64,000 bases of DNA from Nocardia ninae NBRC 108245. Lineage in GTDB: Bacteria; Actinomycetota; Actinomycetes; Mycobacteriales; Mycobacteriaceae. Every line of letters starts with the position of its first letter. The first letter of the stretch is position 1. This document shows, piece after piece, positions 5,490-18,544 of this stretch. Under the pieces are notes generated by a model. The model searched no databases. It was not told the DNA's origin and saw nothing but the letters and a program-made list of their open reading frames with translations. The stretch lies in NCBI RefSeq assembly GCF_007990755.1, contig NZ_BJXA01000007.1, positions 1 through 64,000 of the forward strand. The letters are read 5' to 3'. The translations under genes were made by a program, and so were the position numbers.

Positions 5490-5572
5490 ACCTATAGAAC
5501 TAGCCGGTCTTCTTTACGTCGAGCGCCCCCAATGTTTCCCCCGCGTGACATCACACCTGGACGCTCGCCGAC

Positions 5573-9137: not shown

Positions 9138-9168
9138 CGCCGGTCCACCCTTTATGAGAGGTGTCCAC

Positions 9169-10674
9169 GTGGAAGATCGCGCCAAGCAGCCGGGCAATGT
9201 CCTGGAATTCCGGCTACCCGACCTCGGCGAAGGACTGGCCGACGCCGAATTGGTGTCCTGGTCGGTCGCTGTCGGCGACGCGGTGGAGCTGAATCAGACC
9301 ATCGCCGAGGTGGAGACGGCGAAGGCGGTGGTCGCGCTGCCGTCGCCGTTCGCCGGGCAGGTGGTGGAGTTGCTCGCGCAGCCGGGAGAGACGGTGCTCG
9401 TCGGGGCGCCGTTGATCCGCGTGCAGAACGACGAGGCGGACGCCGCGCCGGAGCAGGCAGGTGGGGCGAACGGTGCCGAGGTGTCGAGCGACGCACCCGG
9501 TGCGGGCCGGACCGCCGTGCTGGTGGGTTATGGGCCCGAGGGTGAAGCCGTGTCGCGGCGCCGTCGGCCCGTTGCCGCTGTCACAGAAGCGGATTCGCAG
9601 CAAGCCCCGAACGGTACGCCGGCGGAGAATCGACAGGACGTTGCGCCACAGGGCGAATCCGTTGACGCGCCGGCAGATTCGACCGAATCGGTTGCCGCGC
9701 GATCGCGAGACACGACCGGCGACTCCGAAGATGATGTCGCAGAGTCCGTGTCGGACGGCACCAGGCCGCAACTGACTACCACGAGGGCCGCTGCCACGCC
9801 TGCCGCCCGCAAGCTGGCGCGCGAATTGGGTATCGATCTGTGGTTCGTCGCGGGTTCGGGGCCCGGCGGTGCCGTCACCGTGGAGGACGTACGCGGGGCG
9901 GTCCCGGTATCGCAACCGCGCACATCGGCGAGTCGACCGGAGACTGCTGCCGCCGCCGATACCAGCGAGCCGGCCCGTGAGGTTCGCACACCGATCAGCG
10001 GCGTCCGCAAGCGCACGGCGGCGGCCATGGTGGCGAGTGCCCGCACCATCCCGCAGGCGAGCACCTTCGTCACCCTCGACTGCACCGCCTCGATGGAGCT
10101 GATCGACCACCTGCGCAGCACCAAAGCCTTTGCCGGGCTGGCGCTTACCCCGCTCGCGCTGGTCGCCAAGTCGGCGCTGGCGGCCTTGCGGGAGTTCCCC
10201 GGCATCAACACCTACTGGGACGAGGCGAATCAGGAGATCGTCACCAAGCACTACGTGAACCTCGGGTTGGCGGTGGCCACCGAGCGCGGCCTGCTGGTGC
10301 CCAACATCAAGGACGCGCACTCGTTGAGCCTGCGCGACCTCACCCGGGAGATCGGCTGGCTGGCCGAGACCGCGCGATCGGGCGGCGCCAGCCCGGCCGA
10401 CCTGCGCGGCGGCACCTTCACCATCACCAATGTGGGAGTGTTCGGCGTCGACACCGGCGTGCCGCTGGTCAATCCCGGCGAGGCGGCCATCCTGTGCCTG
10501 GGCTCGATCCGCAAGCGGCCGTGGGTGTTCCGCGACGAACTCGCGATCCGCTCGGTCACCACCCTGGGCATCAGCTTCGATCACCGCATGATCGACGGCG
10601 AACTCGCCTCCCGCTTCCTCGCCACCGTCGCGAGCCTGCTCGAGGACCCGCTCACCCTACTGAGCCGGATCTAG
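9169..10674 (+). CDS. bkdC: Dihydrolipoamide acyltransferase, E2 component
   Basis: About 501 residues. One lipoyl domain (about 12-85) has the lipoylated Lys in E-T-A-K52-A. A long acidic/Ser/Ala-rich linker contains V-L-V-G-Y-G-P followed by R-R-R-R. A peripheral-subunit-binding domain follows (TPAARKLARELGIDLW, about 205-240), then a catalytic domain ending with H472-R-M-I-D476-G, the acetyltransferase active site. The ATG at 9154 is possible, but GAGAGG (9156-9161) sits at proper distance from GTG 9169, so I prefer the GTG. No E3 gene follows, so the complex must use a lipoamide dehydrogenase encoded elsewhere. The stop is 1 bp before the first 70-bp palindrome. Confidence 0.86.
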   Translation: MEDRAKQPGNVLEFRLPDLGEGLADAELVSWSVAVGDAVELNQTIAEVETAKAVVALPSPFAGQVVELLAQPGETVLVGAPLIRVQNDEADAAPEQAGGANGAEVSSDAPGAGRTAVLVGYGPEGEAVSRRRRPVAAVTEADSQQAPNGTPAENRQDVAPQGESVDAPADSTESVAARSRDTTGDSEDDVAESVSDGTRPQLTTTRAAATPAARKLARELGIDLWFVAGSGPGGAVTVEDVRGAVPVSQPRTSASRPETAAAADTSEPAREVRTPISGVRKRTAAAMVASARTIPQASTFVTLDCTASMELIDHLRSTKAFAGLALTPLALVAKSALAALREFPGINTYWDEANQEIVTKHYVNLGLAVATERGLLVPNIKDAHSLSLRDLTREIGWLAETARSGGASPADLRGGTFTITNVGVFGVDTGVPLVNPGEAAILCLGSIRKRPWVFRDELAIRSVTTLGISFDHRMIDGELASRFLATVASLLEDPLTLLSRI

Positions 10675-10675
10675 C

Positions 10676-10745
10676 CGCACACTTTTTGATTTCCCGCACA
10701 CGAAATCGCATGCGATTTCGTGTGCGGGAAATCAAAAAGTGTGCG
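10676..10745. repeat. 70-bp perfect palindrome, copy 1
   Basis: Two 35-bp arms are exactly complementary with no loop, centred on ATCGCATGCGAT at 10710/10711. The left arm begins CGCACACTTTTTGATTTCCC. The structure begins 1 bp after the E2 stop codon. It could serve as a terminator of the bkd operon, but a perfect 70-bp palindrome is much longer than a normal terminator, and an almost identical copy lies 1.1 kb away. Confidence 0.95.
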
Positions 10746-10843
10746 CGAGGATTGGTGGATGCGAGTTATGCACAGGGGTGAGTTGTGCACAGGTGGGCGG
10801 TGGGGGGTAGGGCTGTGGGCGTGGGGAGGTGAGGATGTTCGCT

Positions 10844-11845
10844 ATGGACGAGATACAGCTCCGCCGGAACGTGCTGAGCCGGGGGTATACCGACCACGAC
10901 ATTCGCCAGCTTTACCGCGGGCGGGAGTGGCGTCGCCTCGGTCATGGCTGTTACATCGAGGAAGCTGACTTCAGCAGTCGTGACAGTGCCGGTCAACACC
11001 GCATTCTGATCGAGTCGACGCTACCTGCGTTAGCCTCAGACACCATCGTCAGCCATCAGTCCGCCGCCGTACTGTACAAATTGCCTTTGTGGGCAACAGC
11101 TTTGGAGCTGGTCCACGTAACGCGAAACCGGCGCAACGGTGGACGGGTACGTCGTGCACTGAAAGTCCACTGCGCTCCTATCGCGGACGGGGTGGTGGAG
11201 ATCGACGGTTGGTGGACCACCTCGCCCGCACGAACAATGGTCGACTTGGCCCGAACCCTGCCCTTCGAGCAAGCTGTAGTCGCGGGTGACGCAGCTTTGC
11301 GGATGCTCGGCGTTACGGGGTCGGAGTTGGCGCTCGAACTCGAATTCGCCCATCGCCGCAGTGGGATCTCACAGGCACGAAGGACGATCGATTTCCTCGA
11401 TGCCCGCAGCGAGAGCGTCGGTGAATCGCGGAGCCGGGTGATGTTCTGGCGGTATGGGTTGCCGATACCGTCCCAACAAGGCGAAGTGCGTTCCGCAACA
11501 GGGGAATTCCTGGGACGCGTGGACTTCTACGACCCGGAGACAGGCGTTGTCGGCGAATTCGACGGCCAGGTCAAGTACGGCCGATTGCTGAAGCCTGGAC
11601 AAGAACCCGGCGATGTGGTCTTCAAGGAAAAGCTTCGTGAGGATGCGCTCCGCGACGCCGGTCTGCGAATGGTCCGGTGGACCTGGCAAGACCTCACCGG
11701 CGAATCGGCGGTTCGCCGGCGGCAACGCGCCATAGACCAGGCCCGCCACTCCCCCCACCCACACGTCACCATCACCCCCGCGCCCCTCCCCTGTCCCCCG
11801 CGGCCGCAGCTCCAGCCGCTACCAACACAGGCGCACACTTTCTGA
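10844..11845 (+). CDS. AbiEi-like N-terminal domain fused to a DUF559/Vsr-like nuclease domain
   Basis: About 333 residues. The N-terminus (about 5-40) has the winged-helix pattern of AbiEi-type antitoxins (L-S-R-G-Y-T, then W-R-R-L-G-H-G-C-Y). The C-terminal part (about 190-285) resembles the DUF559/Vsr-like PD-(D/E)XK fold: E190/E194, R-V-D227-F-Y-D, G-E238-F-D240-G-Q-V-K244, then R-E-D and G-L-R-M-V-R-W-T-W. No AbiEii toxin gene is adjacent, so it is an orphan. Starts at GTG 10829, ATG 10835 and ATG 10844 are all possible; a GGAGGTGAGG tract at 10825-10834 best serves 10844. Base composition is visibly less GC-rich than its neighbours. The stop codon lies inside the second palindrome. Confidence 0.68.
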   Translation: MDEIQLRRNVLSRGYTDHDIRQLYRGREWRRLGHGCYIEEADFSSRDSAGQHRILIESTLPALASDTIVSHQSAAVLYKLPLWATALELVHVTRNRRNGGRVRRALKVHCAPIADGVVEIDGWWTTSPARTMVDLARTLPFEQAVVAGDAALRMLGVTGSELALELEFAHRRSGISQARRTIDFLDARSESVGESRSRVMFWRYGLPIPSQQGEVRSATGEFLGRVDFYDPETGVVGEFDGQVKYGRLLKPGQEPGDVVFKEKLREDALRDAGLRMVRWTWQDLTGESAVRRRQRAIDQARHSPHPHVTITPAPLPCPPRPQLQPLPTQAHTF

Positions 11846-11901
11846 TTTCCCGCACACGGAATCGCATGCGATTCCGTGTGCGGGAAATCAGAAAGTGTGC
11901 G
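11832..11901. repeat. 70-bp perfect palindrome, copy 2
   Basis: Two 35-bp arms pair perfectly around GCATGC at 11866/11867. Compared with copy 1 each arm has two substitutions (T to C and A to G), and each is matched by the complementary change in the other arm, so pairing is kept. The repeat supplies the last four codons and the stop of the nuclease-like gene, and ends 8 bp before the stop codon of the thioesterase gene on the other strand. Confidence 0.95.
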
Positions 11902-11909
11902 GCTCGGGG

Positions 11910-12335
11910 TTAGGCGTCGGTGACGAGGGCGGTGGCGGCGGTGCGGATTACGGCGGGGATCTCTACGGGTTTGCGGGTTTCGGCGTCTACGTAGACGTGG
12001 ACGAAGGTGCCGGTGGCGGCTAGTTCGAGGTCGTTGTCGGCCTCGCGGAAGATGGCCAGGTCGTAGGTGATGCTGGAGCGGCCGAGGCGGGAGATGCGCA
12101 GGCCGACCTGCAGCTGGTCCGGGAAGCTCAGGGAGCCGACGTATTGGCAGGAGGTCTGCGCGACCACGCCGAGCGCGGGGAGTTCGCGGATGTCGGTGCC
12201 GGTGGCGTGCATCAGCCACGCGTTGACCGCGGTGTCGAAGTACGAGTAATACGTCACGTTGTTCACGTGCCCGTAGTGGTCGTTGTCCGCCCAGCGGGTC
12301 GGCATCGGCCAGAGGACCGGATACTGCTGCGTCAC
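11910..12335 (-). CDS. Acyl-CoA thioesterase, 4HBT hotdog family
   Basis: A 141-residue single hotdog domain. The active-site segment W-A-D17-N-D-H-Y-G-H-V-N-N is the D-x-D-x-x-x-H-V-N-N pattern of YbgC/4-hydroxybenzoyl-CoA-thioesterase-like enzymes, with Asp17 as candidate catalytic residue. It would hydrolyse an acyl-CoA or acyl-carrier thioester; the substrate is unknown. It overlaps the upstream AraC-type regulator gene by 4 bp (ATGA), so both are made from one transcript. The frame is complete and of normal family length. Confidence 0.8.
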   Translation of the reverse strand: MTQQYPVLWPMPTRWADNDHYGHVNNVTYYSYFDTAVNAWLMHATGTDIRELPALGVVAQTSCQYVGSLSFPDQLQVGLRISRLGRSSITYDLAIFREADNDLELAATGTFVHVYVDAETRKPVEIPAVIRTAATALVTDA

Positions 12336-18506: not shown

Positions 18507-18544
18507 CGAACGACCCTCCGCCGGGCTCGGCGGAGGGTCGTTCG
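18507..18544 (-). terminator. Strong hairpin after pntB
   Basis: A 17-bp perfect stem (CGAACGACCCTCCGCC and its complement, plus a closing G-C) has a 4-nt loop. It is placed between the pntB stop (18602) and the next gene start (18457) on the same strand. No T-run follows, as is common in high-GC actinobacteria. It most likely terminates the transhydrogenase operon. Confidence 0.7.

Follow-up and report, generated by a model that had tools for sequence, protein, structure and literature searches.

An AbiEi-Vsr-like gene family, many members of which have private, dispersed palindromes built on a four-box plan, is described here. It is a larger finding than the palindrome pair with which the analysis began, in a stretch of 64,000 nucleotides of Nocardia ninae NBRC 108245 (contig NZ_BJXA01000007.1, positions 1–64,000), termed the window. 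Bacteria commonly carry small dispersed palindromes, for which the RAYTs are the well-described partner enzymes. The AbiEi-Vsr gene and its palindromes look like a small selfish DNA element of a type not yet described. The observations comprise the association of palindromes and gene, their covariation, a constant spacing of boxes, five dispersed families, presence/absence and relocation among relatives, and a fold model. The pairing of palindromes with the gene family is stated with confidence. We infer that the protein binds, cleaves and mobilizes its palindromes; recognition is held with fair confidence, and mobilization by the nuclease less firmly.

The window gene and its flanking palindromes

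The gene (positions 10829–11845, + strand) encodes 338 amino acids from a GTG at 10829; ATG codons at 10835 and 10844 are possible alternative starts. It lies in the junction bordered on the left by a 2-oxoacid dehydrogenase E2 acyltransferase gene (9154–10674, + strand) and on the right by a 4HBT-type thioesterase gene (11910–12335, − strand). The initial annotation described two loop-free, perfect 70-bp palindromes around the gene, and both were verified at 10676–10745 and 11832–11901 (no strand is assigned to either). Palindrome 1 has arms of 35 + 35 bp with no loop and no mismatch. Palindrome 2 extends over 11829–11904 with one mismatch, and its perfect core at 11832–11901 has 35 + 35 bp. 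Their placement had also been read correctly: palindrome 1 begins 1 bp past the E2 stop codon (10672–10674), palindrome 2 ends 8 bp from the thioesterase stop codon (11910–11912), and the gene's own TGA stop (11843–11845) falls inside palindrome 2. Each palindrome contains the box CGCACAC twice in one arm and mirrored twice in the other. The boxes of palindrome 1 are at 10676–10682 and 10695–10701, mirrored at 10720–10726 and 10739–10745; those of palindrome 2 are at 11832–11838 and 11851–11857, mirrored at 11876–11882 and 11895–11901.

As first noted, the two copies differ at two positions per arm, and each difference is matched in the opposite arm. Template-switch correction of palindromes could yield such matched changes too, and selection for pairing need not follow from them. 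The gene is indeed less GC-rich (62.8%) than the E2 gene (69.4%), the thioesterase gene (66.4%) and the window as a whole (67.6%). As a control for chance, 400 kb from 20 contigs of the same genome contain six palindromes with a score of at least 14, with arms of 15–20 bp, whereas none is left when this sequence is shuffled with a first-order Markov model. The window also has an ordinary terminator-like hairpin at 18507–18544, with a perfect stem of 17 bp and a four-base loop.

The window protein alone has no match in Pfam and NCBIfam scans, and a PDB sequence profile search gave no match. Among 38 chosen members aligned (alignment A1, with five loci having a stop inside the match excluded at extraction), 12 match AbiEi_4, six match AbiEi_1 and two match DUF559 (best E 0.003). 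The AlphaFold model of the window protein (pLDDT 91.4, pTM 0.88) matches the AbiEi antitoxin 6y8q (E 1.9e-6) and Rv2827c 1zel (E 6.2e-4) in Foldseek. A modest match is to the Vsr-like homing endonuclease I-Bth0305I (3r3p; probability 0.91, E 0.18, target-normalized TM 0.63), and the Vsr structures 1cw0 and 1vsr match weakly. The early guess of an AbiEi/DUF559-like protein with a Vsr-like domain agrees with these matches, more weakly for I-Bth0305I than for AbiEi.

Conserved motifs of the family are GES, VDF and EFDG, and conserved acidic residues of the window protein are E199, D232, E243 and D245; all four (E or D at position 243) are intact in 109 of 130 loci. Motifs and secondary structure suggest a DNA-binding AbiEi-like half at about residues 6–190 and a nuclease-like half at about 195–310, the Foldseek listing being without aligned ranges. 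The AbiEii toxin domain is absent from the three neighbour proteins scanned (E2, thioesterase and an AraC-type regulator).

Homologues at E ≤ 1e-20 are found in at least 93 of 148 genus genomes. From at least 429 loci on named contigs 80 were kept, and the genera include Nocardia, Rhodococcus, Prescottella, Antrihabitans, Skermania, Nakamurella, Pseudonocardia, Geodermatophilus and Blastococcus. A plasmid search gave four records, each under 39% identity. There is no homologue at E ≤ 1e-5 among 50,697 phage records, and this absence disfavours a phage origin. One homologue (locus L117; G121:C51:4133–4725, with G, C and L denoting genomes, contigs and loci) is present as two overlapping pieces in different frames and is apparently decaying.

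Association of palindromes with the gene family

A total of 159 homologue loci, covering part of the genus matches, were examined, and 130 were left once duplicates were removed. Palindromes with a score of at least 14 number 74 in 243 kb made up of the genes and the DNA up to 450 bp from them, compared with six in 455 kb of remaining flanks, a 23-fold difference. At least one such palindrome is near the gene in 55 of the 130 loci. The 80 named-contig loci alone show 57 palindromes in 153 kb near the gene versus three in 313 kb. With a score of at least 12, palindromes are present on both sides of the gene in 23 of 130 loci, on one side in 43 and on neither in 64; with arms of at least 24 bp, the numbers are 17, 28 and 85. 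Palindrome presence switches at least 25 times on the tree.

The sequence of the palindromes follows the locus. In 18 of the 23 both-sided loci, the upstream palindrome is matched best by the downstream palindrome of its own gene; in one further locus this partner ranks second, behind a near-identical orthologue; the four loci without a partner match have a short hairpin on at least one side. Median palindrome similarity in these 23 loci is 48 within a locus versus 8 between loci.

Arms near the gene also share an internal plan. Among the 124 arms that reach 28 bp or more, 81 (65%) contain a direct repeat with a score of at least 7, versus 5.8% of shuffled arms. In 76 of these 81 the two units are offset by 19 or 20 bp; arms from one locus and from orthologues are non-independent. 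As this offset is found in most repeat-bearing arms, the common plan is one of four boxes, two direct and two mirrored. Box sequences are unrelated among loci (CGCACAC, CTTGACG, TCACACACGTT, GCTCCTGGGGT, CATTGCACC and more), and the 19/20-bp spacing is absent at some loci, e.g. L160, L185, L209, L210, L216, L218 and L228. At loci L139 and L143 a hairpin repeat of another type, with arms resembling CCGGCRTGSTTTTGGCCGGGATC, departs from the four-box plan.

Arm similarity shows a partial rank correlation of 0.24 with residues 6–190, given residues 191–310 (0 of 500 permutations; 43 loci); for residues 191–310 the value is 0.11 in the same number of loci. The correlation fits recognition of the box by the AbiEi-like half, with the permutation leaving shared descent in. 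In a per-column specificity search, the columns were not clustered in one recognition helix. The idea, raised at the outset, that the protein recognizes such palindromes thus gains indirect support from the covariation, the box plan and the arm-protein correlation.

Loci having palindrome arms of at least 26 bp keep the four catalytic residues intact in 43 of 44 cases. The exception is L143, whose palindrome, of a different repeat type and with altered catalytic residues at the locus, was left out of the arm-similarity and independent-pair analyses. Sixty-six loci with intact catalytic residues lack palindromes with arms of this length. A long palindrome is present at 44 of 109 intact loci versus one of 21 catalytically altered loci (Fisher p 0.001, with kinship ignored). 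The tree-independent pairs (1.7 vs 0.0 of 17) are not significant, and the link between catalytic intactness and palindromes was dropped as support.

Covariation of boxes and protein is accounted for equally well by plain operator coevolution. The protein might be an autoregulator, with the palindromes serving as operators and terminator, the dispersed copies being regulatory sites or passengers of recombination, and the nuclease fold being a relic or used for binding only. AbiEi proteins bind inverted repeats at their own promoters, and the model matches AbiEi. In addition, the upstream palindrome is centred 118 bp ahead of the start of the window gene and some 100–170 bp ahead in many relatives. 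However, the second palindrome is downstream, where it overlaps the gene's stop in both the window and G121, and the catalytic residues are kept at all long-palindrome loci except one, albeit not significantly when tree-corrected. Autoregulation is considered unlikely as the explanation of the whole.

Dispersed copies and junctions among relatives

The window palindrome belongs to a dispersed repeat: its genome has it at 19 places beyond the window pair, 21 in total. The two window copies are the only perfect ones. Fifteen others keep 14–34 pairs in arms of 16–42 bp, most with 27–34 pairs; two further copies keep 25/31 and 17/20 pairs, and at two of the 19 places the palindromic shape is lost. 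Eighteen of the 21 copies fit best as loop-free, and a GTAG end is absent. Genes at the dispersed sites, in the 400-kb sample and in the junction comparisons were called with a simple ORF caller. On this basis, and classified by hand, eight of the 17 shaped dispersed copies are between convergent genes, five are between co-directional genes and four are unclear. Convergent placement is thus in modest excess over the 22.5% expected from junctions in the 400-kb sample (p 0.02), which is atypical for operators and is a further point against autoregulation.

Convergent stop codons are 35–58 bp from the palindrome centre at the L009, L021, L022, L023 and L025 sites, as would be expected if the palindromes terminated transcription of two convergent genes in both directions and had no relation to the gene they enclose. 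Yet the palindrome sequence follows the gene, palindromes are found upstream of the gene too, and the 400-kb sample of the same genome has no arms over 20 bp. We find this explanation extremely improbable. A pure terminator, i.e. one that is downstream-only and independent of the gene in sequence, is disfavoured by the upstream copies and the covariation. A palindrome both widespread and unlinked to the gene family would have spoken against the initial annotation. This is half the case: widespread it is, but its sequence is linked to the family.

Other members of the gene family have palindromes of their own. A paralogue in the same genome (contig C23, 44% identical) has a distinct palindrome pair around it, and this sequence recurs at seven other places. 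A second paralogue in G047 has its own palindrome sequence at 16 other places, and with this sequence as query, weaker matches are found in G058, G040 and G000. The palindrome of the Skermania gene recurs at five other places, and an N. brasiliensis-type palindrome is dispersed in G047, G058, G008 and G065. Other loci with the gene between two palindrome copies, which had been proposed as a check, therefore exist, e.g. the C23 paralogue and G047.

Genus-wide searches scored up to six DNA candidates and up to 14 protein candidates per genome; the numbers of matches are minima, and the lack of a match does not prove a genome empty. The window-type palindrome is matched in at least 11 of 148 genomes and the N. 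brasiliensis-type in at least 17 of 148. The latter has a match in 12 of 14 genomes with a homologue at E ≤ 1e-100 versus five of 134 others (Fisher p 3.6e-12, which ignores relatedness), or in 10 of 14 (p 2.6e-9) when weak matches in G000 and G121 (28–29 bp pieces) are left out. The cut-off was picked after seeing the data, and inclusion of G012 (E 1.2e-100) gives 13 of 15. Two genomes with close homologues, G048 and G100, have no N. brasiliensis-type match among the candidates scored.

The window-type repeat persists without a close gene in G079, G111, G093 and G076, and G065 has strong N. brasiliensis-type matches without a close homologue. The gene may have been lost from such genomes, or another factor may be acting. 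Repeats of this kind would also be expected if the gene merely hitch-hikes between palindromes that are mobilized by another enzyme elsewhere in the genome. Against this, the window genome has no match to PF01797 (HUH/Y1, RAYT), the one transposase family searched for, with the control positive in five of 14 genomes, and two paralogues each have a private palindrome family. Hitch-hiking is regarded as very improbable.

Comparison of junctions shows that palindromes and gene vary in presence. E2 neighbours the thioesterase gene in 20 of the 30 thioesterase loci compared; a palindrome is found in five of these 20 junctions (window, G079, G047, G008 and G058) and in none of the other 15. Palindrome-free junctions are 12 bp in G111 and 8 bp in G065 and G093. 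A gene-free junction with a single palindrome, for which a search had been suggested, was found in G079 (N. suismassiliense). The order there is E2-TAG-one palindrome-TTA-thioesterase, E2 is 94% identical, and the outer flanks are similar to the DNA on the left of window palindrome 1 and on the right of palindrome 2. In G121 (N. colli), E2 is followed by a palindrome, the gene (79%), a second palindrome, one more gene and the thioesterase; both palindrome copies are of the genome's own variant, and the second overlaps the gene stop codon, as in the window. Because G121 also has palindrome-gene-palindrome after E2, the G079 state may equally be a deletion between two palindromes. The proposed duplication of a single ancestral palindrome by gene entry is one of two readings, with gain and loss of the gene both fitting the states seen.

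A relocation is seen in G047, G058 (N. brasiliensis) and G008 (N. vulneris), where the region is syntenic and the E2/thioesterase junction holds a single palindrome. The palindrome-gene-palindrome cassette is about 5 kb away, at a junction that in the window (5490–5572, no strand assigned) has neither gene nor palindrome. The L022 site also varies: G000 and G079 have the palindrome, G111 and G047 lack it, and G121 has an array of four; no clean comparison was obtained in G076 and G093, and the L023 site has no clean empty site besides G079. Target-site duplications of the kind associated with classical MITEs and insertion sequences were not seen by eye at the junctions compared, few of which offer clean empty sites. 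The differences in palindrome copy number and presence among relatives are not those expected of an autoregulator's operators. G121 contains four-palindrome arrays within about 0.7 kb at L074 (3900–4560) and L281 (1800–2560), and two palindrome variants alternate in the L074 array.

The junction states can also be looked at as homing. The palindrome would be the target in an empty allele, cutting would copy the gene in between two palindromes, and the dispersed palindromes would have arisen by another route. The match of the model to Vsr-like I-Bth0305I is in keeping with a free-standing homing endonuclease, as is the one-palindrome empty junction of the sister genome G079, which fits a homing target and may be a deletion; both palindromes are intact at the filled window locus. 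But homing alone leaves unexplained the scattered copies at unrelated sites and the arrays of four in G121, and within one syntenic region the same gene occupies two separate junctions. Homing is quite improbable as the main explanation.

Known systems and a proposed mechanism

In REPIN/RAYT systems, short palindromic repeats that are scattered extragenically and sometimes clustered also stand on both sides of a gene, and a genome may have several repeat families near their own RAYT genes (PMC3116915, PMC3733652). The AbiEi/Vsr-like gene is similarly flanked by its own dispersed palindromic repeat. It differs in that the window protein matches AbiEi and Vsr-like folds, not HUH/Y1, and its palindromes are about 70–80 bp in length, have little or no loop, contain four boxes and lack a GTAG tag. 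A conventional REP/RAYT is disfavoured by the absence of a PF01797 gene from the window genome. The organization itself is REPIN/RAYT-like, and the AbiEi-Vsr system is set apart in that the enzyme that defines REPIN/RAYT was searched for in the window genome and is absent.

Other systems share single features. Free-standing Vsr-like homing endonucleases of the I-Bth0305I type (EDxHD) have a similar catalytic-domain fold (3r3p) and conserved acidic residues, whereas the AbiEi-Vsr protein is paired with private dispersed palindromes, has AbiEi-like sequence and has no homologue in the phage records searched. The AbiE type IV toxin-antitoxin regulator AbiEi and Rv2827c resemble the protein in fold (6y8q, 1zel), and AbiEi_4 is matched by about a third of the aligned members (12/38); the window gene differs in having no AbiEii in the three scanned neighbours, nuclease-like motifs in the same protein, and palindromes on both sides. 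Solitary DUF559/Vsr-like proteins such as Caulobacter VsrA resemble it in the DUF559/Vsr-like nuclease domain (DUF559 in 2/38 members), but VsrA is tied functionally to a cytosine methyltransferase, and the term 'palindrom' is absent from the main text of that paper (PMC12907096). Within the part of the open-access PMC literature covered, no paper apparently describes an association of an AbiEi/Vsr-like gene with palindromes.

The explanation that we favour, and consider reasonably probable, is that the gene and its two palindromes are a small selfish unit, a partnership of the REPIN/RAYT type built from unrelated parts, in which the protein recognizes and probably cuts its own palindromes. 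The AbiEi-like half would recognize a short box present four times per palindrome, i.e. two direct copies 19–20 bp apart that are mirrored in the other arm. The Vsr-like half would thereby be placed to nick or cut the palindrome or an extruded hairpin. Breakage and repair, or copying, could then spread palindromes to other intergenic sites, and recombination between the two flanking palindromes may lead to gain or loss of the gene. The dispersed palindromes would be non-autonomous descendants.

A broader view, plausible but held more tentatively, is that this represents a second, independently evolved REP-like class. An AbiEi-Vsr fusion nuclease would act on four-box palindromes via a fast-changing box code, spread non-autonomous palindromes and itself be carried between two of them, in many actinobacterial genera and with several private families per genome, possibly timed by DnaA. 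The organization seen with the RAYTs is here found with an unrelated protein family, whose natural variants come with DNA boxes to match, and this makes the spread of such repeats directly testable. Actinobacterial orphan genes known by AbiEi/DUF559 labels alone would also be given a function, and the family would offer a protein-DNA recognition code to solve.

Two DnaA-box-like 9-mers (10766–10791, + strand) are found upstream of the window gene, TTATGCACA at 10766–10774 and TTGTGCACA at 10783–10791. No tree-corrected link was found between such boxes and the palindromes. The DnaA-box-like motif TTRTSCACA is upstream of the gene in 54 of 130 homologue loci versus two of 247 other genes, the control being the 400-kb sample of the window genome alone. 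The sites upstream of homologues suggest replication-linked expression. They are on the sense strand in 68 of 75 cases, and their 5th–95th percentiles are at 78 to 45 bp before the start.
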